A stretch of 64,000 bases of DNA, taken from positions 124,501 to 188,500 of the forward strand of contig NZ_JAAGSC010000023.1 in NCBI RefSeq assembly GCF_010499265.1. Direction: 5' to 3'. Each line of letters begins with the position of its first letter. The stretch's first letter is position 1. Under the pieces are notes generated by a model, which searched no databases, was not told where the DNA came from, and worked only from the letters and a program-made list of their open reading frames with translations. A program made the translations under genes and the position numbers. This document shows, one piece after another, positions 20,335-61,823 of this stretch. The DNA comes from Wenzhouxiangella limi (GTDB taxonomy: Bacteria; Pseudomonadota; Gammaproteobacteria; Xanthomonadales; Wenzhouxiangellaceae).

Positions 20335-20475
20335 TCAGAACGAATCGCACCGCTCGATCACCGCCCCGGCACGCGCCATGCTCAAATCCAGGGGTACGGT
20401 CACGATCACGCCCACCGCCGGCACCGTGTGCATCGGCGCCGCGGCCCACAACGGCACACGCGGTGCGCTGTCTGT
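20335..20475 (-). pseudogene. possible 3' remnant of an unidentified gene
   Basis: Between the MFS gene and the histidine kinase, the minus strand has an open stretch ending at a TGA at 20335-20337. It reads as a plausible protein tail (PLWAAAPMHTVPAVGVIV ... ERCDSF) with coding-like composition, but no convincing start and no family I recognise. The position directly downstream of an AlgZ-like kinase is where an AlgR-like regulator would be expected; the tail does not look like a LytTR domain. It may simply be non-coding. Confidence 0.2.
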
Positions 20476-21500
20476 CAGGTGATCGGAAAAGTCAGCTCGG
20501 CGATGAACTGCCCGCCTTCGATTCGGGTCTTGAGCCCGTAGCGCTCCTCGTAGGCCAGGGCCAGGCGCTGGCGGATGTTTTCCAGGGCCGAGTGGTTGCC
20601 CTCAACCGGCCGGCTGTCGGTATCGGCCAGCGGATTGGTGACGGTAAAACGGATGCGGCCGAAGCGGATGCGCCGGCCTTCGATCCGAAGCGTCCCGCCA
20701 TCGGCCCGGCGCGAGATGCCGTGGATCACGGCGTTTTCGACCAGGGGCTGGAGCAGCAGCGGCGGCATCTGCTGATCCAGCGGCAAGCCCTCGCCAAGCT
20801 GCCAGTCGACGTTCAGCCGGTCCCCCAGCCGCAGCTTCTCGATACGCAGGTAGCCCTCGATCAACTCGATCTCATCGGACAAGGCGTGGGTGGCATCTTC
20901 CTTCAAGCCTGTCCGGAGCAGATCCGACAAATCCACCGTCGCCTGCTCGGCCTGGTCGGGGTGGTCGTGGATCAGGCTGGAGATGGTGTTTAAGGTGTTG
21001 AAAAGAAAGTGGGGGCGGATTCGGGATTGGAGTTCAAGCAACTTTGATAAAGATTCGGCGCGCCAAGACAGGCGCCGGGACTTTATCATCCTCAATAACC
21101 AAATGGATACCGCTGACATAATAGCTGAAAGCAGACCATTCCGAATTACAAAATATAACGAGCCGCTTGCTAACTGCTCATCAGACAAAATTTCAAATTT
21201 AGGGTCGACGTTTACCGTATAAGAAAAACCGATTACAAACACCGGCAAGACTGCAAACGCGCGGATGGAAATATCAACTAGAGAATTCTTCACCTGTTCA
21301 GAAAATGACAAACCTCCTATCAACAAGCTGAGAATCGCACACCACGTAGAGAACAAAAGTACTCTTACAAACGTATTAGTGGCTTCTACAAACCCGCCGG
21401 TTACAGAAAGAGAGAAACCGGCAGAAAAGGCAATGACGATAAAAATAAAATACAAGACAAGCCTCGCTGGAAGAAAAAACGAGGCTTTCTTGATGAGCAT
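20475..21500 (-). CDS. AlgZ/FimS (LytS-type) membrane sensor histidine kinase
   Basis: 341 aa. Four or more membrane helices in residues 1-140, then SRIRPHFLFNTLNTISSLI with phospho-acceptor H164, a His_kinase domain, and an ATP-binding N-box LQPLVENAVIHG. This is the AlgZ/FimS/YehU architecture. AlgZ with the regulator AlgR controls minor pilin operons in Pseudomonas, which fits the pilin genes next door, but no LytTR regulator gene is in the window. Base composition is split: the sensor half (about 21080-21500) is AT-rich like the adjacent pilin operon, while the catalytic half (20475-21000) is GC-rich like the chromosome. The switch falls at the H-box. No frameshift is visible. Confidence 0.87.
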   Translation of the reverse strand: MLIKKASFFLPARLVLYFIFIVIAFSAGFSLSVTGGFVEATNTFVRVLLFSTWCAILSLLIGGLSFSEQVKNSLVDISIRAFAVLPVFVIGFSYTVNVDPKFEILSDEQLASGSLYFVIRNGLLSAIMSAVSIWLLRMIKSRRLSWRAESLSKLLELQSRIRPHFLFNTLNTISSLIHDHPDQAEQATVDLSDLLRTGLKEDATHALSDEIELIEGYLRIEKLRLGDRLNVDWQLGEGLPLDQQMPPLLLQPLVENAVIHGISRRADGGTLRIEGRRIRFGRIRFTVTNPLADTDSRPVEGNHSALENIRQRLALAYEERYGLKTRIEGGQFIAELTFPIT

Positions 21501-21546
21501 TGGCCAACTAAACTCACATTATCTCACGCCTATAACTGAAAGACTA

Positions 21547-22899
21547 TCAGCTATTCCAAACTTGCCCCCAATCCAGTAAGACCACCTCACCAGTACCGGT
21601 AGAGGTGTCCGCGCCACCCCCAAGAGAACTGGCACCAACAAATGTAAAAGAGCCGTTTAATCTGAGATCGCCATTCATGATAATTTGCCCACTTAAAACA
21701 GAATTGCCATTCTGCGTCATATCTCCACCAGCAAAAAATCGACCATCAAACGGCGTATCAGGATCGTTCCCTGTGGAACCGTTAAACGTCATATCCCCGC
21801 CAGCGTAAAATACGTTATTAACTTCACCGCCACCACCTTGGCGGATGGCACCGTTATGTTCCATATCACACGTTGCAATGACCGTCATATTCTCAAAGGT
21901 CGAATTACCACCACCCCCACTAATCGATACATTGCCGTTAACAAAGACGACATCACCAGCGGAATAGTTCGACAGATCCAAGGAATATGTAGATGCCGAA
22001 TTACAATTGACGGAGGCAGTGCCGCCGAAATTGTTAATGTCGTTTGAGATTGGGACGGCATCAGCCGAACCAAAAGGATATGGTTCAAACACCCCTTGGT
22101 CATTAATTTCCGTAAACGTGACTTCACCAACTCCTCCAGCAGCCACGTCTGTGTCCACTTCATTGCGCCATGTTTCAATTCGGTCGACAAAATTAGGTGG
22201 AGGAAGCACTAAGCCTGCGTCTTCAATTATTGCGCAGTCTATGCATCTATCTGTATCTCCGTCTGGATCCAGATTGATATTTGTTGTGCCATTCGCAGTA
22301 ACTCGCGAATTAGTCAATATCGTATTGCCGCCCGTTATCCGGACCTCCTCCAAGTTGCCATCGGAATGTATGTACGTGTTTGTTAAATATGCATTGCCGT
22401 TAATTCTAATGGTGCCGTTCGTCCAAATGTCCTTATCGCCACCCAGTGGAATTAATGATGAGTCATAACGCACAATTGCTCTTAACTGAGTCTCTGCAAG
22501 TACATCCTGGCCAGAAAATGACTGACCTCGAACATTAAGGATACATCTGCTATCAACGCTTGAACACGAACTAGCCGGACTTGTGAATGACTGCCATGAG
22601 TCAATTATAAATCTCGAGTTTGGCCCAGCTCCGTAGCTTACAAACGTACTCAAGCTTGGATGCACTGCCCCCCAGTTGGCATCGGGATCAGCTCGCAACC
22701 AGCCGATATGCTCTTGTAAGGCACCTTCCGCTGCCATGCTCGATTCTGCAATCCGCTTCTGATTTCCAGACATGCGCTCCTGCAAACTCGAGCTATTAAG
22801 CATTGCCACGCCAAGCACGGTAAGCACGACTAAAATTATTAGTGCGATAACCAAGGCGACGCCTTTGGACTTTTCAGCTTTAAATTGTTTGACGTTCAT
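21547..22899 (-). CDS. pilX: PilX-like minor pilin with long repetitive beta-solenoid-like C-terminal domain (AT-rich operon)
   Basis: 450 aa, far longer than a usual PilX (~170-200). The N-terminus is a PilX prepilin: KGVALVIALIILVVLTVLG then SSSLQERMSGNQKRIAESSM, lacking Glu5 as PilX proteins do. From residue ~150 the chain is rich in Gly/Asn/Thr with recurring turns (GDMTFNG, GDMTQNGNS, GDLRLNGS), suggesting a right-handed solenoid similar to bactofilin-like domains (my inference). Several cysteines are present (CIDCAII, VNCNSAS). ATG 22899 has AGGA 8 nt upstream. Last gene of the AT-rich minor pilin operon; no pilY1 follows. Confidence 0.85.
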   Translation of the reverse strand: MNVKQFKAEKSKGVALVIALIILVVLTVLGVAMLNSSSLQERMSGNQKRIAESSMAAEGALQEHIGWLRADPDANWGAVHPSLSTFVSYGAGPNSRFIIDSWQSFTSPASSCSSVDSRCILNVRGQSFSGQDVLAETQLRAIVRYDSSLIPLGGDKDIWTNGTIRINGNAYLTNTYIHSDGNLEEVRITGGNTILTNSRVTANGTTNINLDPDGDTDRCIDCAIIEDAGLVLPPPNFVDRIETWRNEVDTDVAAGGVGEVTFTEINDQGVFEPYPFGSADAVPISNDINNFGGTASVNCNSASTYSLDLSNYSAGDVVFVNGNVSISGGGGNSTFENMTVIATCDMEHNGAIRQGGGGEVNNVFYAGGDMTFNGSTGNDPDTPFDGRFFAGGDMTQNGNSVLSGQIIMNGDLRLNGSFTFVGASSLGGGADTSTGTGEVVLLDWGQVWNS

Positions 22900-22951
22900 G
22901 ATGCTGTCCTCGCATATTAATGCCTTTGTTTGGGGTCTTAGTCATAAAGGC

Positions 22952-23545
22952 TCAGAAAACCTCTCGGATTACAGGATTCCGGAACGCTACGACAAATCTG
23001 TAATTGACATCTTGAAATGGATCATCTTCTTGAAATGGATCATCTTCTAGAGCGACGTCAATTGTCAGTCCAATAGGTGTTACCCCGTCCGAAGCAAGGG
23101 TTTGAGTGAACGTGAGGCTTGATATGCCCTCCAGCATCGTACCTACAAGGCCCTGGCCACCATCGCATCGAAGCTGTGTACCCACAAGAGAATAAGTGTT
23201 TGTGGCTATGCCATTTGTTGGTGCTGTGTCTTGTCCCAGACAATTAGTACTTGCTTCATAATTTACTTCTACGGATGTTGATGATGGTAGCGAGAAAAAT
23301 TTTGAAGGCGGGCTGGGCACCAGGGGGAAAGATCCCGTCATCCGTAGTTCCTGAACGAGAAAGTTCGATATAAATCGAAGATTCTCTTGAGCTCGGGCCA
23401 TCTCTTCCGCATCTCTTGCTGAGCTTGCACCGGAGCCAGCTAATAAAATTGCACCACCAATCAGAAACACACTGAGGGTCAGCGAAACCATCAATTCAAC
23501 CAAGCTGAATCCTCTTGGAGCTAAATCTTTTTTTATTGGATTCAT
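22952..23545 (-). CDS. pilW: PilW-like minor pilin (AT-rich operon)
   Basis: 197 aa. Type III prepilin signal RGFSLVELMVSLTLSVFLIGG with Glu5, then the long helix with AQENLRFISNFLVQELRMTG typical of PilW. It is short for the family because little follows the pilin core. Near the C-terminus the sequence EDDPFQ occurs twice in a row, encoded by a perfect 18-bp tandem repeat. It lies 52 bp upstream of pilX and one base downstream of pilV. It is predicted to be an inner-membrane pre-pilin cleaved by PilD and built into the priming complex at the pilus tip. Confidence 0.85.
   Translation of the reverse strand: MNPIKKDLAPRGFSLVELMVSLTLSVFLIGGAILLAGSGASSARDAEEMARAQENLRFISNFLVQELRMTGSFPLVPSPPSKFFSLPSSTSVEVNYEASTNCLGQDTAPTNGIATNTYSLVGTQLRCDGGQGLVGTMLEGISSLTFTQTLASDGVTPIGLTIDVALEDDPFQEDDPFQDVNYRFVVAFRNPVIREVF
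23011..23046 (+). repeat. 18-bp perfect tandem repeat (two copies) in pilW
   Basis: CTTGAAATGGATCATCTT occurs at 23011-23028 and again at 23029-23046. On the coding (minus) strand it duplicates six codons, giving EDDPFQ twice without changing frame. The exactness at DNA level points to a recent slippage duplication. Confidence 0.95.
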
Positions 23546-23546
23546 G

Positions 23547-23972
23547 TCAGGGCGCTACCGGCAGTCTCGTTCTATAAGCAAACTCTTCAGCATCGTCGGC
23601 TAGACCGAAACGGGAGTCTGCCCAGCTGATTTCAATGTCAACGTCTATCCAGCCATTTCCTGTCGCTACTTGACTGATCTCGACATCCAATTGCGGAAGA
23701 TTAGTAAATGACCACTCTGCAAGCACGTCGGACTCAATGTCAGAAAGACTGTAGCTGCCAGTTTCACCGAGTTCCAGCCAGGCACGCTCTTCCGCATCAA
23801 TCGCAATCATGCTGGCGATTGAGCTGAAGTACGCAGAGTGGGATGCTTGTAATGATCTGAGATTCAATCCAGCAAGTCCCGCAAGTCCAATAGCTAGGAC
23901 CAATGCGGCCACCAAAACTTCAATTAAGGTAAGGCCCCGCTGCGTTCTGCAAATTTTCACTTGTGTGTTCAT
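23547..23972 (-). CDS. pilV: PilV-like minor pilin (AT-rich operon)
   Basis: 141 aa. Prepilin signal RGLTLIEVLVAALVLAIGLAGLAGLNLRSL is the PilV hallmark (I-E-V-L-V-A, then G-L-x-G-L). ATG 23972 overlaps the upstream fimT/fimU stop (TAATG); the longer frame begins with TTG and is less likely. Follows the order fimU-pilV-pilW-pilX seen in other type IVa pilus loci. DNA is AT-rich compared with the flanking chromosome. Confidence 0.87.
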   Translation of the reverse strand: MNTQVKICRTQRGLTLIEVLVAALVLAIGLAGLAGLNLRSLQASHSAYFSSIASMIAIDAEERAWLELGETGSYSLSDIESDVLAEWSFTNLPQLDVEISQVATGNGWIDVDIEISWADSRFGLADDAEEFAYRTRLPVAP

Positions 23973-24466
23973 TAGGTTCCCGAGCAACTTTCGAATGTTC
24001 GTCTCACAGATCCACTTATTAAAATGTTGAGCACTGCGCGCTGACGCTGCCCACTGCAGGGCTCGTGCTCAACAGCCAGGGTTACTTCTCCAGAAGACAA
24101 TACGGAGCGGTCATTAAAAATCAGCGGTAGAGAACCACTCTCTGCAGTCAAATCAGTATTCTCAAACGTTACCTGCTTCACAACACAAGCTGGCGAACAA
24201 TCTAAATTTTGTACCTCCACTGTCCAACTGTCCGAACCCGTTGTTTTTATCAGCTGGTATCCATTGACACTTGCACTTGCCTGGCTCCGTGCATAAGCGA
24301 TCAATGAGCTCAACTCATTACTTTGCGCGGTTACGCGATTATTTCTAATAAAGTTTTGTAAGCCCGGAGTTGCTAGTGTAATGAGTATTGAAGCCACAAC
24401 AATGACAACCATAAGCTCAATGAGCGTTATTCCTACTGGAATTTGTTTTAGAAAATTTCGCGCCAT
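23972..24466 (-). CDS. FimT/FimU-like minor pilin (AT-rich operon)
   Basis: 164 aa from ATG 24466, which shares a base with the pilE stop (TGATG). Prepilin motif VGITLIELMVVIVVASILITLATPGLQNFI, then NRVTAQSNELSSLIAYARSQA, the H-type pseudopilin core of FimT/FimU/GspH. It has paired cysteines (LDCSPACVV, EPCSGQ, ESCSGT), probably disulfide-bonded in the periplasm. FimT-type proteins in some Xanthomonadales-related bacteria bind DNA during natural transformation, but nothing here proves that role. Confidence 0.83.
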   Translation of the reverse strand: MARNFLKQIPVGITLIELMVVIVVASILITLATPGLQNFIRNNRVTAQSNELSSLIAYARSQASASVNGYQLIKTTGSDSWTVEVQNLDCSPACVVKQVTFENTDLTAESGSLPLIFNDRSVLSSGEVTLAVEHEPCSGQRQRAVLNILISGSVRRTFESCSGT

Positions 24467-24855
24467 CACGAACCCCAGCATCTGTCGTTATCACTACCGG
24501 CGTCGCGTTCACCGTCTTGTTTGAGCGTGAATGTTCCGCACGGGTCGTCTGACTGTGAACCTTGTGGAACCGCCTGAAGGGTATAGGTCGTCGCGGTGGG
24601 GCCAGCCGCGAAGGAAATCGTGTAAAAACCATCGTCGGTAGGGCCCGTCACAGTCGGGCAGTCGTTGTACACATTTTTACGGGTGAAACAACGTTCAAGC
24701 ACTTGGGCAGCATTAAGCAAGGACGATTGCGCATCCGCCCGCCGCGTCTTCTGCACCTGATTTTGATAAGAAGGAATCGCAATCGCGGCCAAGATGGCGA
24801 TCACGGCCACCACGATCATCAATTCAATCAGCGTAAATCCACGAACTTTCATCAT
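24466..24855 (-). CDS. pilE: PilE-like minor pilin (first gene of the AT-rich operon)
   Basis: 129 aa. Textbook type IVa prepilin: RGFTLIELMIVVAVIAILAAIAIPSYQNQ with Gly-1, Phe+1 and Glu+5, then RRADAQSSLLNAAQVLERCF and a short C-terminal disulfide region, all PilE-like. I start at ATG 24855 (MMKVRG); the longer frame begins at TTG. In most loci pilE is last, after pilY1; here a pilE stands first, ahead of fimT/U, and its composition is intermediate between the AT-rich genes and the chromosome. Confidence 0.88.
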   Translation of the reverse strand: MMKVRGFTLIELMIVVAVIAILAAIAIPSYQNQVQKTRRADAQSSLLNAAQVLERCFTRKNVYNDCPTVTGPTDDGFYTISFAAGPTATTYTLQAVPQGSQSDDPCGTFTLKQDGERDAGSDNDRCWGS

Positions 24856-25110
24856 TTTGGCCTTCAATTGCGGGATGTCAGGCTCTGATTATGGCCCAAC
24901 AGCCGGCCCGGCACCATTGGCCGGGCGGAACGGAAACCTGCAATTTGAGGATACGCCCGCGCCCCTGCTAATCCAAGCGCGGGCCGACGGGCGGGGTTGT
25001 TTGGTGGACAGGCGGTCATGGCGGCACTCCTCAGGGGGAGTTTCCGCAAGGTCGGCCATTGGGGGCGTCAGCTAAAGCGCGCCATAGATGACACCCGTGG
25101 CACCGGTGTC
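24856..25110. other. intergenic region between the two minor-pilin operons
   Basis: 255 bp without a credible gene. It must carry the promoter of the pilE-first operon, but I see no sigma-54 -24/-12 pair. A 6-bp stem (GACACC at 25090-25095 with GGTGTC at 25105-25110) just past the upstream pilX stop could slow transcription. Confidence 0.5.
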
Positions 25111-26352
25111 CTAATGGATTTCCTGCCAGCGGGTCATAGCTAGAGCGCTGACAGGGCCAGGCGCTTCCGGCAAGGGAAGAATGTTGGAAAAACTATCGCT
25201 TTGTTCATAGGTGAAATTGCCCGGTAGACGGATGTTGCCGCCGGCAACTATTGAACCGCCAAGGCTCCCTCGGCCATTCTGGCGAACATTGCCCTCTGCC
25301 CAGAAAACACCATACATGTCACTTCGGCCGTTCAACGTGATATTTCCACCCGAGATCAAGGCAACCGAAAGTTCATTATTTGCTCCCAAGTAAGACCTAC
25401 CACGGTGGGTGATGTCACCGGAGGCCATGAAAGTTACATTTGACAATCCCTGTTGTTTGGGGAGGGTCAGATCGCCGTCACAAAAGTAAATAACGCCGCC
25501 GCCATCACCATCGTCTGGGAGGTCATCAGTTTCGCAGGTCTCAATAACGTTGCCGTCGCCTTTGGTTTCGTCAATAAACTCGGCTGCCGACGGAACATCT
25601 ATCTCTTGCGCATTTGATTGGATTCGTGGGGAACTTGATGGGTCATTGGGGTCATGAGGTGTACTTCCTCCAAAATCCACTTCGCCCTGGGCCGTAATGG
25701 TATTTTCAATAGTTACTGGGTCACCGTTCTCATCAATCCCCTGGCGATCCTTAAGCTCACTGTTACCGGAAGTATTCGTAAAATTTCCGTTGGCATGAAT
25801 GCTACCTTGAAAGGTCGCTTTCCCGTTGGTGGTGATGTTTTCGTTGGCCAGCATGCCCTTAAAGAAAGCCGGGTTGATCTGCATGCCACCGGACTGCGGC
25901 CGTTCGAATTCCACCGCCAGCGCGGTCTGGGCCAGCACCTCATTGCCGGTGAGTGAAACGCCGCGGACAGTGACGGTTACATCGTCGTCGGTCCACGACA
26001 GGGCCGGATCGATCCAGAAATAACCGCTGGCGCCAACGTTCGGGGTCGGGTTCTGTGGCAGGCTGGCCGGCAAGGCATTCGTCCAACCAGTGCGCCAATC
26101 GTCGTCGGTCCAGTCCAGCGTTCCGTCTGCAAATTCCTGCTGCAGCCAATCCCAGAACTGCGCACCACCGGCCTCGGCAGCCATAAAGGAGATGGCCTTG
26201 TTGTTGGTGTTGGCGGTCATCCGTTCCTGCATCAGGCCGGCATTCATGCCGGTTATACCGACCAGGGTCGCGATGAACAACAGTATCAGGATGATGGCAA
26301 GTGCGACGCCCTGTTGCCTGTTTTGAAACGATGGATTGGTCATGCGCGTCAT
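25111..26352 (-). CDS. pilX: PilX-like minor pilin with repetitive beta-solenoid-like C-terminal domain (GC-rich operon)
   Basis: 413 aa. N-terminus QGVALAIILILLFIATLVG then NAGLMQERMTANTNNKAISF is the PilX prepilin pattern. The C-terminal ~250 residues repeat a G-[ND]-[IV]-x-x-[NR]-G theme: GDITHRGRS, GNITLNGRS, GNVRQNGRG, GNIRLPGN. This parallels the PilX at 21547-22899 (compare FWAEGNVRQNG with FFAGGDMTQNG), so the two are divergent paralogues with the same unusual fusion. ATG 26352 overlaps the pilW stop (ATGA). As in the other operon no pilY1 follows. Confidence 0.86.
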   Translation of the reverse strand: MTRMTNPSFQNRQQGVALAIILILLFIATLVGITGMNAGLMQERMTANTNNKAISFMAAEAGGAQFWDWLQQEFADGTLDWTDDDWRTGWTNALPASLPQNPTPNVGASGYFWIDPALSWTDDDVTVTVRGVSLTGNEVLAQTALAVEFERPQSGGMQINPAFFKGMLANENITTNGKATFQGSIHANGNFTNTSGNSELKDRQGIDENGDPVTIENTITAQGEVDFGGSTPHDPNDPSSSPRIQSNAQEIDVPSAAEFIDETKGDGNVIETCETDDLPDDGDGGGVIYFCDGDLTLPKQQGLSNVTFMASGDITHRGRSYLGANNELSVALISGGNITLNGRSDMYGVFWAEGNVRQNGRGSLGGSIVAGGNIRLPGNFTYEQSDSFSNILPLPEAPGPVSALAMTRWQEIH

Positions 26353-27398
26353 TGGCAGACTCCCGCAGAGATAGAAAATGAGGTATTGTTTTTGATATTG
26401 CCGCCGGGTTCGTTAGCGTCGCAACAGTTGTTTGAGCATGACTCCGCGTTGCTCGGATCAGATATCAGGGTCGAGCCTTTGTTTTTGAACAAACATTGGC
26501 AGGTCCCAGGATCCGGTGAACCGCTGGCTGAATCGCCATCGTCGTCGTTGTTACCATCAGTACCCCCGTCGCCATCGCCGTCATCTTCGTTGGTTCCATC
26601 GTCATTTCCGTCGTCGTCGGTGCCACCAGTGTCATCGGTTTGATCGTTGGCATCCGACCCATCATTCTCGTCATTACTATCGTTGCCTGCGCCTTCGCTG
26701 CCGTTGGTGCCGCTCCCGCCACCCGGCGACCCGCCCGCCCCGCCAATGCCCGAGGCTTCTTCCAGAACAGGCATCCGCATGGTCGCTGAGAAACGGCCCA
26801 CGCGGCCGTGACTCTGCCCAGAGCGATCCAGCATCGCCAGGCTGACGTTGACGCTGCGCACGTCGTCCCAGTCGGTGACTGAAGCGGGAACTTTCCACTG
26901 GTCGTTGTCTGCCCAGTACTGATCGCTGGCCTGGCCGAACAGCACGACCGAATTGCTTGCATCCAGTCCACCGACGATGGTTTCGGTGAGGGTGCCATCG
27001 GCGTTGGCGGCCGAGCAGCGCAAGTTGCCATCAACGATGCTGAAGGTGTTGGTCGTCTCAATGGTGATCTCACGTCCCAGGCAGTCCTTGTAGCCATTTT
27101 CACCTTCCGGCCTGATGACCACCTTCAGCCACTCACCGCTTGCCGGGGTTTCAATCTCATCTCCCTGCCGAACCACCCGCTTGATGGTGTGCGAGGCAAA
27201 CCGAAACGCCTCCTGGGCGTTGTTCAGGTCGGCCTGGGCGCGGGAGGTCTGCTGGTTGGCGGCAAAAACGCCAATGATGGCACTGATCACGATCAGGCTC
27301 AGGGCCATGGCCACCATCAACTCGACCAGGCTGAAGCCTTGATTTCGGTTTGCAGGGCGGGGGAATCTGGAGCTCATGCGGTCAGTCTCCTTGTTCAT
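26349..27398 (-). CDS. pilW: PilW-like minor pilin with Asp/Gly-rich linker and Cys-rich tail (GC-rich operon)
   Basis: 349 aa. Prepilin NQGFSLVELMVAMALSLIVISAIIG, then NNAQEAFRFASHTIKRVVRQ of PilW. After a conventional pilin head (to ~residue 225) there is a ~75-residue stretch almost wholly of D, G, N, T, S and E with D-x-D-G-x-type spacing reminiscent of thrombospondin type 3 calcium-binding repeats. A small tail with six cysteines (TCQCLF, CSNNCCD, GVCQ) closes the protein. It overlaps pilV and pilX by ATGA. The linker is absent from the paralogue in the AT-rich operon. Confidence 0.87.
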   Translation of the reverse strand: MNKETDRMSSRFPRPANRNQGFSLVELMVAMALSLIVISAIIGVFAANQQTSRAQADLNNAQEAFRFASHTIKRVVRQGDEIETPASGEWLKVVIRPEGENGYKDCLGREITIETTNTFSIVDGNLRCSAANADGTLTETIVGGLDASNSVVLFGQASDQYWADNDQWKVPASVTDWDDVRSVNVSLAMLDRSGQSHGRVGRFSATMRMPVLEEASGIGGAGGSPGGGSGTNGSEGAGNDSNDENDGSDANDQTDDTGGTDDDGNDDGTNEDDGDGDGGTDGNNDDDGDSASGSPDPGTCQCLFKNKGSTLISDPSNAESCSNNCCDANEPGGNIKNNTSFSISAGVCQ

Positions 27399-27877
27399 GT
27401 CGAGCAGTCGACCCGGGGCAGACGGAAGTTGTGGACGAACTCGATGGTCGCGGGCTCTCCGTCGCGGGCCGTGCGCTCGTTCCAGCGGATGGTCAGTTCA
27501 ATGACGGTACCCACCGAGTCGGCGGCGTCCTGGTAATCCAGGGCCGGGCTGGACCAGCCGGTCCCGGCCAGCGTGCCTTGTTGCTGCGCCTCCCAGGCAG
27601 CCTTGATGGTGTCGGCCTCGGCCTCGACAAAATCGCCATCGTCGTCATACAGGTCGCAGAGTCCGGCCCACATGCGCTCGACCAGGTCATTGGCCTGCAT
27701 CACGGCCACCGAGCGTTCGTAGCTGGCCTGGCTGCCCTGCAGACCGGTCAGGTTGAGCGCGGCCAGGCCCAGAAGACCGAACGACAAGATCAACACTGCG
27801 ACCAGAATCTCGATCAGGGTGAAGCCGGCAGCCCGACTTGAAGACGTGCGGTTGGGACGAGGACGAATCACGGGCAT
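27395..27877 (-). CDS. pilV: PilV-like minor pilin (GC-rich operon)
   Basis: 160 aa. AAGFTLIEILVAVLILSFGLLGLAALNLTGLQ is a PilV-type prepilin signal and helix, followed by ERSVAVMQANDLVERMWAGL. A short basic N-terminal leader precedes the cleavage site. It overlaps the fimU end by 10 bp and pilW by 4 bp, so the four genes are a single translationally coupled operon. Confidence 0.9.
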   Translation of the reverse strand: MPVIRPRPNRTSSSRAAGFTLIEILVAVLILSFGLLGLAALNLTGLQGSQASYERSVAVMQANDLVERMWAGLCDLYDDDGDFVEAEADTIKAAWEAQQQGTLAGTGWSSPALDYQDAADSVGTVIELTIRWNERTARDGEPATIEFVHNFRLPRVDCST

Positions 27878-28374
27878 GTCTCGTCTCCATCGATAATTCG
27901 GGCGTTGCCGGCCAGCGACATGCAGACCGTGCGCTCAGCCGATGCCACCTGGATATCAAAATCGATAATGGTCTGGCCCTCCAGGGTGCCGGTATTGGAA
28001 AACACCCATTCCTCAGCGCCGTCGATGTCGATCGAGGAACCCGGCGATGCCTGGGCGCGCAGAATTTCGGGGTTTCCGGATCCGTCCTCGCCCAGAACGA
28101 TCCAACCGCCTTCCCACTGACCACCGCTTGTACAATCGGTCGCGCCGGGACAAACGGTAATGTCCTGGCCGTTGGCGATGGCCGCGCTGCGGGCAAACTG
28201 CAGGCTGGCCAGCAAATCGTTGGCGGTGCTGGTGGCCCGGTTCTGCGCCACCAGCGCCTGGAAACCTGGGATACCAATGCTGGCCAGGATGGCAAGCACG
28301 GCCACCGTCACCATCAGCTCGACCAGCGTCAGGCCGCGTTGCGTGCGATAGCTTGTCGTCTTGTGCAAAGGCAT
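27868..28374 (-). CDS. fimU: FimU/FimT-like minor pilin (first gene of the GC-rich operon)
   Basis: 168 aa from ATG 28374. QRGLTLVELMVTVAVLAILASIGIPGFQALV then ATSTANDLLASLQFARSAAI is the GspH/FimU core. VCPGATDC and VCMSLAGN with DETC provide disulfide cysteines. The longer frame starts at TTG 28416 and would overlap the sigma-54-like promoter, so it is rejected. FimU links the minor-pilin tip complex to the major pilin in type IVa pili. Confidence 0.88.
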   Translation of the reverse strand: MPLHKTTSYRTQRGLTLVELMVTVAVLAILASIGIPGFQALVAQNRATSTANDLLASLQFARSAAIANGQDITVCPGATDCTSGGQWEGGWIVLGEDGSGNPEILRAQASPGSSIDIDGAEEWVFSNTGTLEGQTIIDFDIQVASAERTVCMSLAGNARIIDGDETCP

Positions 28375-28411
28375 TGTCAGTCGCGATGAAATCCGGTCCT
28401 GCAGTCCCAAA

Positions 28412-28427
28412 TGCAACTAAAATGCCA
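28412..28427 (-). promoter_or_regulatory. sigma-54 (RpoN) type -24/-12 promoter of the GC-rich minor-pilin operon
   Basis: On the minus strand TGGCAT (28427-28422), a 5-nt spacer, then TTGCA (28416-28412), against the RpoN consensus TGGCAC-N5-TTGCA: a single mismatch. Transcription from it would start near 28400, giving a leader of about 26 nt before the fimU ATG. RpoN with PilR drives pilin genes in Pseudomonas and Xanthomonas. Confidence 0.7.
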
Positions 28428-56745: not shown

Positions 56746-57516
56746 TCAGTCCTTCGGCGGCCAGGGGATAAACGCCGAGGTCGTGCGCTGGTATTCGCGG
56801 TAGGCATCGCCGCGCGATTTCAGCGACTGCTTCTCGGTGTAGGGGATGCCGGTGACGCGGTACAGGAACAGCAGCATCAGCACCGGCCCCAGCCAGGCCA
56901 GCCACTGGAAGGGAGCACCCATCGCGATCAGCGGGTAACTGAACCAGTGTAGCCACTCGAAGAAGTAGTTCGGGTGACGCGAATAACGCCATAGCCCGAC
57001 CTGGCAAACCTTGCCACGATTGGCCGGGTCGCGGCGGAAGGCGGACAGCTGGCGATCCGCCAGCGACTCGCCCGCCAGGCTGACGAACCAGACCACAACG
57101 CCCAGGATGACCCAGACATTCATGGCCGGTGAGGGGTCGTTGGCGACCACCCAGGCCGGTAGTGAAAACAGCCAGGCGATCAGGGCCTGACCCATGAAGA
57201 ACACAAACAGCCAGAACTGCGCCCTCTCGCCCCAGTGCTCGCGCATGGCCTGGTAGCGGCCGTCTTCCTGTTCGTGACCGGCCAGGCGCACGGCCAGATG
57301 CCGGGTCAGACGAAACGACCAGGTCCCCGCCACCAGCGCCACGAGTACCCGCTTTTCAACTGCCCCGTCGCCGAATACCGCATAAAACACGGCCAGCGCA
57401 CCGATGCTGCCGGCCCAGAAAGCGTCCACCCAGTCGGCTCGACCGGACCGGCGCTGCCAAAGCCATACGCCGGACATGAGCAAGACGGTCAACAAAAAAG
57501 CGATCAGGAGGTTCAT
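56746..57516 (-). CDS. DUF1295 / steroid 5-alpha-reductase-like membrane protein
   Basis: 256 aa, about seven helices. SGRADWVDAFWAGSIGALAV, then GLWRYSRHPNYFFEWLHWFSYP and TGIPYTEKQSLKSRGDAYREYQ are the DUF1295 signature, similar to the C-terminal part of isoprenylcysteine methyltransferase and steroid reductases. Substrate unknown. Divergent from the P-type ATPase operon, with the palindromic operator candidate between. Confidence 0.88.
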   Translation of the reverse strand: MNLLIAFLLTVLLMSGVWLWQRRSGRADWVDAFWAGSIGALAVFYAVFGDGAVEKRVLVALVAGTWSFRLTRHLAVRLAGHEQEDGRYQAMREHWGERAQFWLFVFFMGQALIAWLFSLPAWVVANDPSPAMNVWVILGVVVWFVSLAGESLADRQLSAFRRDPANRGKVCQVGLWRYSRHPNYFFEWLHWFSYPLIAMGAPFQWLAWLGPVLMLLFLYRVTGIPYTEKQSLKSRGDAYREYQRTTSAFIPWPPKD

Positions 57517-57650
57517 CCGGCCATGATGGACCTATCCCGTGAGCACTGCAGCAAATCGTCGGAAAATTTACGCGCGCCGAAATCCTGAGGCCCGGCTGGG
57601 TAGGGCTCGTCCACGACATGGCATGGAACAAGACTCACTCGCTATTGCAA

Positions 57651-57691
57651 GTGATTTTTGTTTGATGGTAAATTTTGCGTTTACCAATCAC
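57651..57691 (+). promoter_or_regulatory. nested palindromic operator candidate ahead of the P-type ATPase operon
   Basis: GGTAAA-N7-TTTACC (57667-57685) lies inside GTGATT (57651-57656) ... AATCAC (57686-57691). The stretch is AT-rich, unlike its surroundings, and ends 17 bases before the first ATG with AGGAG between. Two symmetrical half-site pairs suggest repressor control; it does not match the Fur consensus well. Confidence 0.5.
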
Positions 57692-57708
57692 GCAGGAGCA
57701 TCAGTTCA

Positions 57709-58365
57709 ATGTACGACCAGCCTCCCCGCGGCTCGGGCTGCAATCAGGAAGAAGGACCGGATCCGGCGCAACAACAGGCGGCTGGCGGGCCGCCGCCGGG
57801 CTACGGATGGGGCTACTACGGTCCCCCGCCGGGCGCTCCCGGAACCTGGGGTCCGTATGCTGCCGGCCCCGATGCCGCCACGATGCCGGGTTGGGGCCCC
57901 ATGGGTCCGGGCTACGGACCGGTGTACGGTCCCGGACCTCACGGCATGGCCGGACACGGTCCCGGTGGTGGCTACGGACCCGGCGCTGGATATGGGCCTG
58001 GCGGCGCGCCCGGCATGCAGGGGCAAGGACCGGGCGGCGGTCGCGGACCCGGCATGGAGCAAATCATCGAGGAAATGGCCGCAGGCTCGGGTCTGGCAGG
58101 CCTCGGCAAACTGCTCGATTTCGAAGACACCGATTTCTGGAAAGGCGCCCTGGTGGGTGCAGCTGCGGTCTTGCTGCTGACCAACGAAACCGTCCAGCAA
58201 TCGCTCTTCAAAAGCGGCGTCAAGGCCCGCGATGTGGTCGAGAAAGGCCTGGACTCCCTGCGTCCCAAGGCAGCTGAAGAAGAGACTGAACCCGCCGCCA
58301 AGCCGGCTCCGGCCAAAACCCGCAGCACCACAACCCGGACCAAGAAAAAGGAATCCTCGTCATGA
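57709..58365 (+). CDS. Gly/Pro/Tyr-rich membrane protein of the ferrosome-like operon
   Basis: 218 aa from ATG 57709 (AGGAG upstream). Residues ~20-115 are low-complexity Gly/Pro/Tyr (repeated GYGP, GPGP), then MEQIIEEMAAGSGLAGLGKLL, one helix FWKGALVGAAAVLLLTNETV, an amphipathic segment QSLFKSGVKARDVVEKG, and a Lys/Thr-rich tail. The helix plus amphipathic segment is paralogous to the protein at 58688-58960. Low-complexity plus one membrane helix recalls organelle-coat proteins such as MamD/Mms6, but there is no proof of homology. First gene of a chain of overlapping genes ending in the ATPase. Confidence 0.7.
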   Translation: MYDQPPRGSGCNQEEGPDPAQQQAAGGPPPGYGWGYYGPPPGAPGTWGPYAAGPDAATMPGWGPMGPGYGPVYGPGPHGMAGHGPGGGYGPGAGYGPGGAPGMQGQGPGGGRGPGMEQIIEEMAAGSGLAGLGKLLDFEDTDFWKGALVGAAAVLLLTNETVQQSLFKSGVKARDVVEKGLDSLRPKAAEEETEPAAKPAPAKTRSTTTRTKKKESSS

Positions 58366-58691
58366 ACTACTACTATCCCGGCTCCTACCCGATGCAGCCT
58401 GCGCGCCCGCAGCGGGGTTACTACGAGATGGCACGGATTGGCGCGGTGGCCGGTTTCTGCGGCACCGGGGCACGCAATCTGTACCGCCTGCAAAACGGTG
58501 ACATCAGCCGGGCCGATGCCGCGCTCGATACTCTTCGCGGTAGCGCTACGGCCGGACTCGCCGCGGGCGCTGCCAGCCTGGTCGCGTCCCAGTTCCGTTC
58601 CCCGGTCGCGTCTTTCGTGGCCGGTATTGCAACCGGCACCGCGGTCGTCTATGGACTGGAGCGGGCCATGGTCAAAGGAGACGCAGGATGA
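58362..58691 (+). CDS. MamC/Mms13-like small membrane protein
   Basis: 109 aa. Two glycine/alanine-rich helices (ARIGAVAGFCGTGARNL and GIATGTAVVYGLERAM flank the middle) around NLYRLQNGDISRADAALDTLRGSATAGLAAGAA. The pattern N-x-x-x-L-x-x-x-x-I-[ST]-x-x-x-A-x-[DL]-T followed by A-G-L-A is that of the magnetosome membrane protein MamC (Mms13). The match is by memory of the family and should be searched. ATGA overlaps on both sides tie it to the operon. Presence of a MamC-like protein does not imply magnetotaxis. Confidence 0.6.
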   Translation: MNYYYPGSYPMQPARPQRGYYEMARIGAVAGFCGTGARNLYRLQNGDISRADAALDTLRGSATAGLAAGAASLVASQFRSPVASFVAGIATGTAVVYGLERAMVKGDAG

Positions 58692-58960
58692 ACGGCGGCT
58701 ATCCGCTGCGCGATCCGCGCTACCCGACACCCGCACCTCGACAGCCCGGCGGTACCGCTTCCCGCGATCGATTCGTCAAGGGGCTGCTGATCGGTGCGGC
58801 CGCGACTTACTTGCTGACCAACGAGCAGGTGCAGCGCGCGGCGATCAAGAGTTCAGTCAAGGCCTGGTCGACGCTGCAGGGTGGCGTCGAAGAGCTCAAG
58901 GAACGCTTTCAGGATGCCGAGGCCGAGCTGCGCCTGGCAGAGCAGGAGCGTGGCAGCTAG
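58688..58960 (+). CDS. small single-helix membrane protein, paralogue of the first gene's C-terminal module
   Basis: 90 aa. A Pro/Arg-rich N-terminus, then RFVKGLLIGAAATYLLTNEQV, QRAAIKSSVKAWSTLQGG and a charged coiled helix VEELKERFQDAEAELRLAEQ. Compare FWKGALVGAAAVLLLTNETV and KSGVKARDVVEKG in 57709-58365: F-x-K-G-x-L-x-G-A-A-A-x-x-L-L-T-N-E-x-V-Q is shared. YtxH-like in general shape. Its 3' end overlaps the ATPase reading frame. Confidence 0.7.
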   Translation: MNGGYPLRDPRYPTPAPRQPGGTASRDRFVKGLLIGAAATYLLTNEQVQRAAIKSSVKAWSTLQGGVEELKERFQDAEAELRLAEQERGS

Positions 58961-61124
58961 CGCGCTCGCCATCGCCCCGCACGCTGCCGATGCGCCCGCG
59001 CCCGCGCGCCAGGTGTCGCTAACCGAGGGCGCATACATCGTCCATGAATTGCCCGGCAGGCTGCGCTTGCGATTGCCCGCGCTGGCGCAGGCGCGGGATG
59101 CGGTCGGTCAGCTCGAAGCCTGGATGGAGGGAGATCCGTCAGTCACCCACCTTAGGGTCAACGGCTCGGCGCGCTCCCTGGTCGTCGAGTACGAGCCCGA
59201 AGCCGGCGCCAGGGAAGCGGTGCTGAACCGCCTGGCCCGGTTTCGCGTCGATCCCGATCTGGTCGGCGTCAATCCGGAAGAACAAGCCGAGCTGCTGCCG
59301 CTACTGACCGGGCTGATGTCGCTGCTGTTCATCCCGCTTCTCCCCACGACCGGCAAACGTCTGCTGACCCTGCTGGCGGCCGGACCAACGCTGGCGCGCG
59401 GCGCCGACGCGTTCGTTCAGTCGGGGATTGGAACGGAGGTTCTCGATGCGCTGGCCGTCGGCCTGTCGGCGTCGCGTGGCGAGTACTACACGGCCAGCCT
59501 GACCGCCAGCATGCTGGCTTTGGGCGAGTACATGGAAACCCACACCGCGCGCCAGTCCGACCGCATGCTGCGGCGGTTGCTCAGACCACGTCCGGTCATG
59601 GCCTGGGTCGAGCGCGACGGGGCCCTGGAGCAGATCGAAGGCGCCCAGGTCAAGGCGGGCGACATCGTCGTCGTCGGACCCGGAGAGACGGTGGCAGCCG
59701 ACGGGCGGGTCGTGAGCGGAACGGCGCTGGTCAATCAATCGGCGATCACCGGCGAAGATGTCCCGGTTCGTCGCGAACACCTGCAAAGGCTGGTGTCGGG
59801 CTCGGTGGTAATCGATGGCCAGGTTCGTTTCGAGGCCACACGGGTGGGCGAGGAAACCACCACCGCCCGGGTGGCGAAATTCATTCAGGAATCGCTGAGC
59901 CAGCGCTCGCGCACGCAGCGTCTGACCGACGAGCTTGCCGACCGGCGGGTCTACCTGACGCTGGGAACGGGCGCGGCCGTTTATGCCCTGACCCGCGATG
60001 CGCGGCGACTGCAGTCGGTTTTTCTGGTCGACTATTCCTGCGCCCTCAAGCTCGGCACGCCGGTCGCATTCAAGGCCGGAATGGTGCGCTCGGCCCAGCA
60101 GGGCGTCCTGGTCAAGGGCGGCGAGGCCATCGAGGGCCTGGCCAGCGTGGACACGGTGGTTTTCGACAAGACCGGGACCCTGACCCACAGCGATCTGGCC
60201 GTGACCGACGTTGTCGTTCTCGACGGCAGCCGCTGTCAGGACACGCTGCTGGCGCTGGTGGCGTCCATCGAGGAGCACGCCACCCATCCCATTGCCAGCG
60301 CCGTGGTCAAGGCGGCCCGGGAACAGGCGCTGGAGCACATCTCTCACGGCGAGGTCAGCTACCTGGTTGCCCACGGCATGTCGGCCGACGTCGACGGCAG
60401 CCGCCTGTATATCGGCAGCCGGCACTACCTCGAAGAGCATATCGGACTTGATTTCGCCGCTTTCGGGGAGACCATCAACGACCTTCAGGCCCAGGGCAAG
60501 ATCCTGCTCTACGTCAGCGATGATCACCGCCCCGTCGGCCTGATCGCCCTGCGTGACCGGGTCCGCGAAGACGCCAGGGAAACCGTTGACCGCCTGCGCG
60601 AGCTCGGTATCAAGCGCCTGATCCTGATCACCGGAGACCGGAAAAACAAGGCGAGAACGCTGGGACGCCGGCTGGGTCTGGATGAAATCCACGCCGAAAT
60701 GCCGCCGGAAGATAAGGCCGCCATCGTCGAGCGCCTGACCCGCGAAGGCGCCCGGGTGGCTTTTGTCGGCGACGGCGTCAACGACGGGCCGGCGCTGGCC
60801 GCCTCGGAAGTCGGCATTGCCATGCCGCGGGGAGCCGACATCGCGCGGGCGACGGCCGACGTGGTGCTGCTGGAAGACCGTCTGTCGCTGGTCGCCGACG
60901 CGCGCGCCATTGCGCTGGATACCAGCCGCCTGATCCGGACAAATTTCAACCTGGCCGTCGGTATCAACACCACCATTCTCGGCGCCGCCGCGCTGGGTCG
61001 CGTTTCGCCCGTCGGCAGCGCCCTGCTGCACAACGGCAGCACCATGGGAATCTTGCTCAATGCCCTGTCAGGCGGAAAGCTGACCGGCGGCGGCAGGACA
61101 CCGCTTCCGACCGAGGAAGGCTGA
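58914..61124 (+). CDS. P1B-type ATPase with R-rich HMA-like domain and SCA metal motif (FezB-like)
   Basis: 736 aa if ATG 58914 is used; GTG 58950 and GTG 59013 are alternatives (all overlap or follow the small gene upstream). N-terminal HMA fold ~25-100 has HELPGRLRLRLP instead of a CxxC motif. P-type core: actuator ITGEDVPVR, phosphorylation site DKTGTLTH, ATP site with EEHATHPIASAVV, TGDRKNKA, hinge GDGVNDGPALAASEVGIAM. In the membrane metal motif DYSCALKLGTP, SCA replaces CPC/CPH/SPC. These features match the P1B-6 group that includes FezB, the ATPase of ferrosomes, thought to move iron into a membrane organelle. That functional link is an inference. Confidence 0.88.
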   Translation: MPRPSCAWQSRSVAASALAIAPHAADAPAPARQVSLTEGAYIVHELPGRLRLRLPALAQARDAVGQLEAWMEGDPSVTHLRVNGSARSLVVEYEPEAGAREAVLNRLARFRVDPDLVGVNPEEQAELLPLLTGLMSLLFIPLLPTTGKRLLTLLAAGPTLARGADAFVQSGIGTEVLDALAVGLSASRGEYYTASLTASMLALGEYMETHTARQSDRMLRRLLRPRPVMAWVERDGALEQIEGAQVKAGDIVVVGPGETVAADGRVVSGTALVNQSAITGEDVPVRREHLQRLVSGSVVIDGQVRFEATRVGEETTTARVAKFIQESLSQRSRTQRLTDELADRRVYLTLGTGAAVYALTRDARRLQSVFLVDYSCALKLGTPVAFKAGMVRSAQQGVLVKGGEAIEGLASVDTVVFDKTGTLTHSDLAVTDVVVLDGSRCQDTLLALVASIEEHATHPIASAVVKAAREQALEHISHGEVSYLVAHGMSADVDGSRLYIGSRHYLEEHIGLDFAAFGETINDLQAQGKILLYVSDDHRPVGLIALRDRVREDARETVDRLRELGIKRLILITGDRKNKARTLGRRLGLDEIHAEMPPEDKAAIVERLTREGARVAFVGDGVNDGPALAASEVGIAMPRGADIARATADVVLLEDRLSLVADARAIALDTSRLIRTNFNLAVGINTTILGAAALGRVSPVGSALLHNGSTMGILLNALSGGKLTGGGRTPLPTEEG

Positions 61125-61186
61125 GGCGTTAAGAAAAGGCGCAGGCGGCGCCAATCTCGCCGCCGGCTTGTCCTATCTTCTCCGGG

Positions 61187-61555
61187 CTACCGAAGAATGG
61201 TGACCAGCGTGCTCAGGGAGCGCGTGACCGTTTGCTGGGCGACTGCACCAACCACGGCGCGGCTGAAAGTCGCCAGCAGATCTCCATCGCCGGGCGCGGA
61301 GGGTGTTTGTTGAGTGACCTGACCGTTGGGCACGAAACCCTCGGCTGCCAGCATGCCGATGATCCGGATGCCTGTTGCTTCAGAACGATCGTAGTGGATG
61401 GTGATGCTGCCGTTGCGCTCGTTGGTTTTGACGTCCTGAACGCCTTCGGTTTCCATAAGGCGTTCGACGAGGGCTTGAGCATGAGCGACGTCAGAGCGAA
61501 AGCGGCGCGAACGAATACGAATTCGGCCTGGAACGTGATGGAAGTAGTGACTCAT
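61187..61555 (-). CDS. HMA-fold protein with PGRxRxR motif
   Basis: 122 aa from ATG 61555, AGGAGG nine bases upstream. YFHHVPGRIRIRSRRFRSD followed by AQALVERLMETEGVQDVKTNERNGSITIHYD is a ferredoxin-like HMA domain in which H-x-x-P-G-R-x-R-x-R takes the place of CxxC. The ATPase next door has the same substitution (HELPGRLRLR). The C-terminal helix LLATFSRAVVGAVAQQTVTRSL may associate with the membrane. Convergent with the ATPase gene (62 bp apart) but surely part of the same system. FezC-like proteins are the nearest idea. Confidence 0.78.
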   Translation of the reverse strand: MSHYFHHVPGRIRIRSRRFRSDVAHAQALVERLMETEGVQDVKTNERNGSITIHYDRSEATGIRIIGMLAAEGFVPNGQVTQQTPSAPGDGDLLATFSRAVVGAVAQQTVTRSLSTLVTILR

Positions 61556-61618
61556 GGCGCGTGTCCTCCTCAAAAGCATTGATTAAGGATCGGACACTCA
61601 ATATAGAGCATAGAAAAT

Positions 61619-61637
61619 GCAAATGCAAAGCATTATC
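61619..61637 (-). promoter_or_regulatory. Fur-box-like sequence upstream of the HMA gene
   Basis: The plus strand GCAAATGCAAAGCATTATC agrees with the 19-bp Fur consensus at 14 positions and contains the perfect palindrome AATGC-AAA-GCATT (61622-61634). It lies 64 bases ahead of the HMA ATG in an AT-rich stretch, where an iron-responsive operator would be expected. Zur or another metalloregulator is possible. Confidence 0.5.
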
Positions 61638-61643
61638 GTTCTT

Positions 61644-61823
61644 TCAGGCTGATCGGGGCATTGAATCCGATTGATGCGTGCTTTCAGACTCGGCCGGGAG
61701 CTGGCGTCCCGGCCTTGCCTGAGTCTCCAGATGCCGCAGCCAGTCCCGCAAGACTTCATCGCACATCAGCGCCTGGATTTCGCCCCTGTCCGGGCTGTCC
61801 GGACCGTTTTCATGATTCCCCAT
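61644..61823 (-). CDS. small hypothetical protein upstream of the HMA gene
   Basis: 59 aa, ATG 61823 with AGAGG about ten bases upstream, TGA at 61644-61646. Translation is hydrophilic (MGNHENGPDSPDRGEIQALM, then CDEVLRDWLRHLETQARPG) with one predicted helix and a single cysteine. No family recognised. Same strand as the HMA gene 88 bp downstream, with the Fur-like box between the two. Codon use looks coding, but the length is too small to be certain. Confidence 0.45.
   Translation of the reverse strand: MGNHENGPDSPDRGEIQALMCDEVLRDWLRHLETQARPGRQLPAESESTHQSDSMPRSA

Follow-up and report, generated by a model that had tools for sequence, protein, structure and literature searches.

This study asks what is encoded by a compact group of small membrane protein genes and a P-type ATPase gene in a 64,000-nucleotide stretch of Wenzhouxiangella limi DNA (contig NZ_JAAGSC010000023.1, positions 124,501 to 188,500; the whole stretch is called the window here), and whether the MamC-like protein of this group is a genuine relative of the magnetosome protein MamC (Mms13). 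An earlier reading of the sequence alone (the original prediction) had described a ferrosome-like operon at 57651-61823 and proposed a divergent iron organelle or metal-vesicle system. We regard the locus, with high confidence, as a horizontally acquired fez operon of the Rhodopseudomonas/Chromatiaceae type, which would provide a compartment storing iron and buffering its toxicity.

Four genes, designated A to D, were found head to tail on the plus strand. Gene A (57709-58365) encodes a protein of 218 aa with a Gly/Pro/Tyr-rich N-terminus and one short hydrophobic stretch (WKGALVGAAAVLLLTNETVQ), belonging to the same family as C; gene B (58362-58691) encodes a 109-aa small membrane protein of the MamC superfamily, fez type; gene C (58688-58960) encodes a small protein of 90 aa with the signature KGLLIGAAATYLLTNEQVQ...EELKERFQDAEAEL; and gene D (58950-61124) encodes a FezB-type P1B ATPase of 724 aa, having SCA in the metal site of the sixth transmembrane segment and an HMA-like N-domain with an arginine motif (R-motif). 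The start codon of gene D was inferred to be the GTG at 58950. Overlaps of 4 bp (A/B), 4 bp (B/C), and 11 bp (C/D) were observed. Gene E (61187-61555, minus strand) encodes a separate R-motif HMA-fold protein of 122 aa with a C-terminal helix; since it lies on the minus strand and is convergent with D, it is outside the operon, and its inclusion in the operon transcript was considered and dropped. Genes and overlaps otherwise agreed with the original prediction. All five frames were intact, with the motifs kept. The helix numbers proposed earlier (one in A, two in B, and one in C) agreed only loosely with hydropathy analysis: a 15-residue window gave a single hydrophobic peak each in A and C and two in B, and a 19-residue window at 1.3 gave no segment in A or C and one in B.

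Related loci were searched with an SCA-region fragment aligned with the copy in G305, another genome of the class, using one genome per bacterial or archaeal species of the collection. Fifty-two loci were obtained, mostly from Chromatiaceae, and also from Thiothrix, Parasulfuritortus, Blastochloris, Rhodomicrobium, Rhodopseudomonas palustris, Rhodocyclus, Sulfurimonas, and others. Synteny was counted in the 43 loci with 2.4 kb or more of DNA before the ATPase gene (2 of the remainder gave no row, and 7 had less than 2.4 kb). A homologue of B was next to the ATPase gene in 42 of the 43, both one-helix A/C proteins were beside it in 41, and an R-motif HMA protein was nearby in 31. In R. palustris strain XCP (L055), the order was HMA-A-B-C-D-HMA, beginning after feoB and a small frame; the last HMA frame, a weak match (3e-5), reads MTHLVHRLPGRLRFKVP. 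For R. palustris CGA009, ferrosome formation is reported to depend on six fez genes, RPA2333-2338 (PMC12016538). The window operon is taken as a fez operon because its gene order is that of R. palustris, and this synteny, together with the conserved neighbourhood of B and the A/C pair, bears out the original prediction of a fez-like operon. Contrary to the original suggestion, the system is not especially divergent, since Chromatiaceae carry the same set. Two further observations were made on these loci: two MamC-like B genes were present in 9 of the 43 (including Chromatiaceae L012, L013, L018, and L019), and in G305 (L009/L008) the fez ATPase gene is split by a frame break and adjoins feoB and a feoC-like gene.

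The SCA predicted at the metal site of the ATPase was found at residues 363-365 of D, in the sixth transmembrane segment. For tree building, ATPase pieces shorter than 481 residues or without DKTGT were left out, only the last 720 residues of L033 were used, and the other fez ATPase rows were sorted by [SAT]CA. In the resulting tree (59 rows), 56 SCA/ACA/TCA rows including window D were split from 3 CPC pumps with a Shimodaira-Hasegawa-like approximate likelihood ratio (SH-aLRT) support of 99. Window D was in the company of 35 rows, mostly from Chromatiaceae (support 83-86), and shared a clade with the R. palustris ATPase apart from the CPC pumps, the outgroup consisting of only these three rows. 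The highest identity of D was 64%, to L041, a Thiotrichales metagenome-assembled genome (MAG). The grouping of D with Cu/Zn P1B-1/2 pumps that would have spoken against the original prediction was not observed with the three CPC pumps tested. As a separate observation, a second P1B ATPase of CPC type, with an R-motif N-domain (SIPGRVRLRVRP) as in fez ATPases, adjoins the fez operon of L095 (1-2160, minus strand).

Replacement of CxxC by HxxPGRxRxR in both HMA domains, as originally described, was confirmed: the N-domain of D carries HELPGRLRLR starting at residue 32, in place of CxxC, and the motif of E is HHVPGRIRIR (E reads MSHYFHHVPGRIRIR). Pfam HMA_2, with a cut-off of 30 bits, scored 21 bits with D and 40.5 bits with E. 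A profile of E built from 20 relatives matched solved structures of copper and zinc HMA domains (best E-value 4.2e-16). The predicted model of E had an HMA-like topology with a mean predicted local distance difference test score (pLDDT) of 77.8, the strand/helix domain being confident and the C-terminal helix less so; a fold search with this model gave nothing at E ≤ 0.001, several HMA domains being among the top rows. In the alignment of window E with 19 of 52 candidate HMA stretches, chosen by eye as E type, H6, P9, G10, R11, and R13 were invariant (20/20). Another R-motif HMA protein of 140 aa, with a probable membrane tail, was noticed in the same genome (L010, 3647-4069), near a transposase-like frame and far from the operon. 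By eye it is like the type found in fez loci L032, L036, L046, L047, L049, and L060, and is possibly a lost fez component or an extra one.

Protein B matched the NCBIfam MamC model (NF038051) with an E-value of 5.5e-6 and 26.6 bits, the equivalog cut-off being 100. When the MamC profile was run over the W. limi genome, B was the sole match at E ≤ 1 (6.4e-5). Among 20 fez genomes, 18 had a match at E ≤ 1, and the best match was the fez-locus B in 17; the best match in Rhodocyclus was not B, and 2 genomes had none. None of 14 control genomes matched at E ≤ 1e-4, and 8 had some match at E ≤ 1. In the order of genome G428, 39 of 317 genomes matched at E ≤ 1e-4, 31 of them above the cut-off. The eight genomes with matches below it comprised G429, which is L058; G448, with two adjoining pieces of 51 and 31 bits; and six new ones of 30-40 bits. 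The six new ones were followed, and each belonged to a fez-like cluster; the ATPase was of SCA or ACA type in five of these, and in the sixth (L096) no ATPase match was found within the 11.5 kb fetched. Besides B, the L096 cluster encodes an R-motif HMA protein and what looks by eye like a repeat-rich protein with a Pro tail. G545 gave an additional match, this one below the cut-off (73 bits, L101), and the stretch fetched there showed no fez part.

Profile-profile comparison of 62 B rows (59 kept by the HH-suite filter) with 25 MamC sequences aligned 87 columns with a probability of 98.6% and an E-value of 1.2e-15. In the controls, the probability was at most 0.43 for 20 column-shuffled alignments, 0.32 for the reversed alignment, and 1.35 for the C family; omission of the six rows found through MamC gave 98.45 (E-value 4.2e-15). 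MamC was matched by 41 of 43 B members at E ≤ 0.01, and no other NCBIfam model was matched by more than one member. These 43 rows (the window and 42 of 55 B stretches) are a favourable subset, because long-extended or second copies and the weakest members, L045 and L060, were left out; the 62-row set keeps them. In the reverse direction, a B profile made without MamC sequences matched 16 of 398 genomes of the phylum at E ≤ 1e-5, namely the window's own genome, two fez operons, and 13 MamC-type genes scoring 131-171 bits with the MamC model; three of the 13 were scanned with NCBIfam, and all exceeded the MamC cut-off. No fez ATPase was found near the 13 in the fetched stretches. These ATPase-less matches might have suggested that B occurs outside iron organelles as well, but their MamC scores showed them to be of MamC type. 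Searches with the single B sequence found only itself among 369 genomes of the class and, among 61 relatives, itself and a weak match in G049. The predicted model of B (three helices, low confidence, pLDDT 62) was too poor for a fold search. Judged by sequence comparison, the likeness of B to MamC is homology, placing B in the MamC superfamily; the NCBIfam match, the profile-profile controls, and the reverse search agree on the MamC/Mms13-like protein first noted, for which a family match thus exists, though below the equivalog cut-off.

In a peptide of the MamC loop, iron contact at Asp14 and Glu18 was seen by nuclear magnetic resonance, and mutation of Asp66 and Glu70 in MamC abolished its interaction with magnetite (PMC6206293). 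By our own reading of the numbering, Asp14 and Glu18 of the peptide correspond to Asp66 and Glu70. At the first position, Asp was found in 22 of 25 MamC sequences, and an acidic residue in 40 of 62 B sequences (25 Asp and 15 Glu), with Asp in the window. At the second, Glu was present in 25 of 25 MamC and in 0 of 62 B sequences, the latter having Ala (27), Thr (22), Gly (6, including the window), Ser (4), and Phe, Val, and Met (1 each). B and MamC formed separate branches (SH-aLRT 99, with few columns and long-branch warnings). No direction of descent between them is claimed, because of the few columns, the lack of an outgroup, and the long-branch warnings. We read these data as indicating one superfamily with a common loop function, in which the second acidic contact would be present only in the magnetosome branch. 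There is, in our estimate, an even chance that MamC and B represent two branches of one iron-mineral-organelle superfamily, with a luminal hairpin touching the mineral and the Glu branch adapted to ordered magnetite.

Genes A and C carry a common hydrophobic-stretch signature, and their profile models converge into one family, so that a profile cannot separate A from C. Neither had a family match in NCBIfam, and only stray matches were found in Pfam. The first 120 residues of A consist of 33% Gly, 21% Pro, and 7% Tyr, in agreement with the Gly/Pro/Tyr-rich first protein described earlier.

The locus was compared with those of other members of the genus. The flanking genes, separated by 4,537 bp in the window, were approximately 110-690 bp apart in 11 of 15 congener loci; in the remaining four, the right neighbour was not matched within the 1.5-kb flank. 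The left flanking gene presumably encodes a DUF1295-like protein and the right one an EamA-like transporter. The inserted module, with an approximate extent of 57480-61640, is absent from the 11 comparable congener sites. A small minus-strand gene (approximately 61640-61823), for which a counterpart was read by eye in one congener, probably belongs to the old site; the right end at 61823 given originally takes in this gene and is too far. With the congener sites empty and the small gene probably ancestral, the insert comprises A-D plus E. A search for the ATPase at E ≤ 1e-100 matched a single genome among 61 near relatives, that of the window itself, and 2 of 274 genomes of the class; of 30 genomes of the genus, again only the window's own matched gene E at E ≤ 0.001. 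The fez module has apparently been acquired.

Gene content, order, motifs, homology, and insertion relative to congeners were established here, and from them the steps of a mechanism are inferred. By homology to ferrosome operons, D would be located in an intracellular vesicle membrane, through which it would pump cytoplasmic Fe(II) into the vesicle. The HMA domains, arginine-rich and devoid of CxxC in both D and E, might handle phosphate- or nucleotide-complexed or oxygen-ligated iron instead of thiol-bound copper or zinc; that the arginine motif handles phosphate- or nucleotide-complexed iron where CxxC would bind a soft metal is a guess. The Gly/Pro-rich tails anchored by A and C may crowd the surface of the vesicle or act as a scaffold on it, and B may form a hairpin with its loop facing the vesicle lumen and touching the iron deposit, as is held for MamC in magnetosomes. 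The low-complexity and MamC-like proteins would in this way shape the compartment, as originally proposed, and the compartment would store iron and buffer iron toxicity.

Several observations weigh against the assignment to a ferrosome system. The six-gene set is incomplete, since the space from the left neighbour to A contains no HMA gene and E has the opposite orientation; moreover, the comparison was made with R. palustris XCP, whereas ferrosomes were reported for CGA009. Beyond general heavy-metal and P-type models, the only NCBIfam model above its cut-off with D was TIGR01512 (cadmium), and no P1B-6 model turned up in the libraries. The separation in the ATPase tree is partly by construction, because only three rows form the outgroup and an SCA-containing query was used to collect the ingroup; the tree hence speaks against grouping with the tested CPC pumps and not against every subtype. 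feoB is absent from most of the 60 loci searched, with a strong match in 6 and a weaker one in 2 more. As to regulation, no Fur-box-like site of at least 12 of 19 positions was found before gene A. The best such site in the whole window (61619-61637, no strand assigned), which matches at 14 of 19, lies in the promoter of E and constitutes weak evidence. Upstream of the operons, sites of at least 13 of 19 occurred in 13 of 47 loci, as compared with 19 of 214 stretches of matched AT content taken from these loci and 15 of 470 shuffled stretches; this count covers 47 of 51 rows and includes L009 taken on the wrong side, its operon being on the other strand. At 14, the numbers were 6/47 versus 9/214, and at 15 there was no excess (1/47 versus 4/214). 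The enrichment of Fur boxes upstream of fez operons is thus modest and weak.

Other explanations of the operon were weighed. It might encode a plasma-membrane exporter that detoxifies a transition metal (Fe, or Co, Ni, or Zn), the small proteins being accessory and no organelle being formed. P1B pumps mostly export, and profile matches, including one above cut-off to the cadmium subfamily model, class D as such a pump; however, the synteny with the R. palustris ferrosome cluster and the restriction of B relatives at E ≤ 1e-5 among the 398 genomes to fez and MamC-type genes make such an exporter unlikely. A past transfer might also have left the operon as a mere passenger, decayed or silent, but this is quite unlikely. 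All five reading frames are intact, the motifs are present, and the overlaps are tight, although W. limi is the sole carrier among the sampled genomes of the genus, the end branches in the trees are long (0.8 for D and 1.34 for B), and the G305 copy is split.

With regard to B itself, the resemblance to MamC might merely reflect the Gly/Ala-rich composition of these two small membrane proteins. The 26.6 bits are well short of the cut-off of 100, 8 of the 14 control genomes match MamC at E ≤ 1, the model of B is poor, and, among the 20 fez genomes, 2 have no match and Rhodocyclus has its best match elsewhere. A composition effect is nevertheless very improbable, because the match is lost in all 20 column-shuffled alignments and in the reversed one, MamC is matched by nearly all of the 43 B members and any other NCBIfam model by at most one of them, B is the best match genome-wide in 17 of the 20 with no control matching at E ≤ 1e-4, and the reverse search recovers MamC, the profile-profile match surviving removal of the MamC-found rows. 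The fez operon with a B protein homologous to MamC remains the explanation we prefer.

To our knowledge, magnetosomes and ferrosomes have been treated as separate inventions. A common membrane protein would be a concrete, testable tie between them; if the homology has this meaning, the two organelles share a structural component. Questions thereby raised are whether B resides in ferrosome membranes on the side of the lumen, whether it controls how large the iron deposit becomes or which state it takes, and whether MamC came from a ferrosome part. A statement linking MamC to ferrosomes was not found in the literature covered; the founding ferrosome papers are outside this coverage, so the likeness may already have been noted. 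The locus also presents a fez operon added in a genus without another sampled carrier, at an insertion site that is still visible. Elsewhere in the window, a block of lower GC content (20475-28416, 47-60%) contains a sensor-kinase-like gene and genes for prepilin-like proteins, which we take to be probably type IV pilus minor pilins.

Compared with known systems, the window shares a FezB-type transporter with Desulfovibrio magneticus fezABC and the Clostridioides difficile fez genes, a likeness drawn from description only. According to published accounts, FezB is a putative iron transporter in D. magneticus, a FezB-type transporter is needed for ferrosomes in C. difficile, and D. magneticus FezC is a DUF4405-like haem protein; no DUF4405 match was found in any of the five window proteins, in which the window differs from D. 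magneticus. With MamC, window B shares homology over the 87 columns and the Asp at the Asp66 position, and it differs in having no Glu70, in scoring below the equivalog cut-off, and in lying on a separate branch. The six-gene fez operon of R. palustris has in common with the window the A-B-C-D order, an SCA-type ATPase, R-motif HMA proteins, a MamC-like B, and a one-helix C. It differs in having an upstream HMA gene, which the window does not have, and a downstream HMA gene on the same strand, where E of the window is inverted; two same-strand R-motif HMA proteins flank the operon in L051, L053, L058, and L055 and not in the window. In R. palustris XCP it is C that bears the long Gly/Pro-rich tail; in the window it is A. 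The nearest relatives by ATPase are the fez operons of purple sulfur bacteria and their relatives (most of L012-L052), in which the C tails are longer than that of the window; among them, the Thiotrichales MAG L041 likewise has E convergent behind D.

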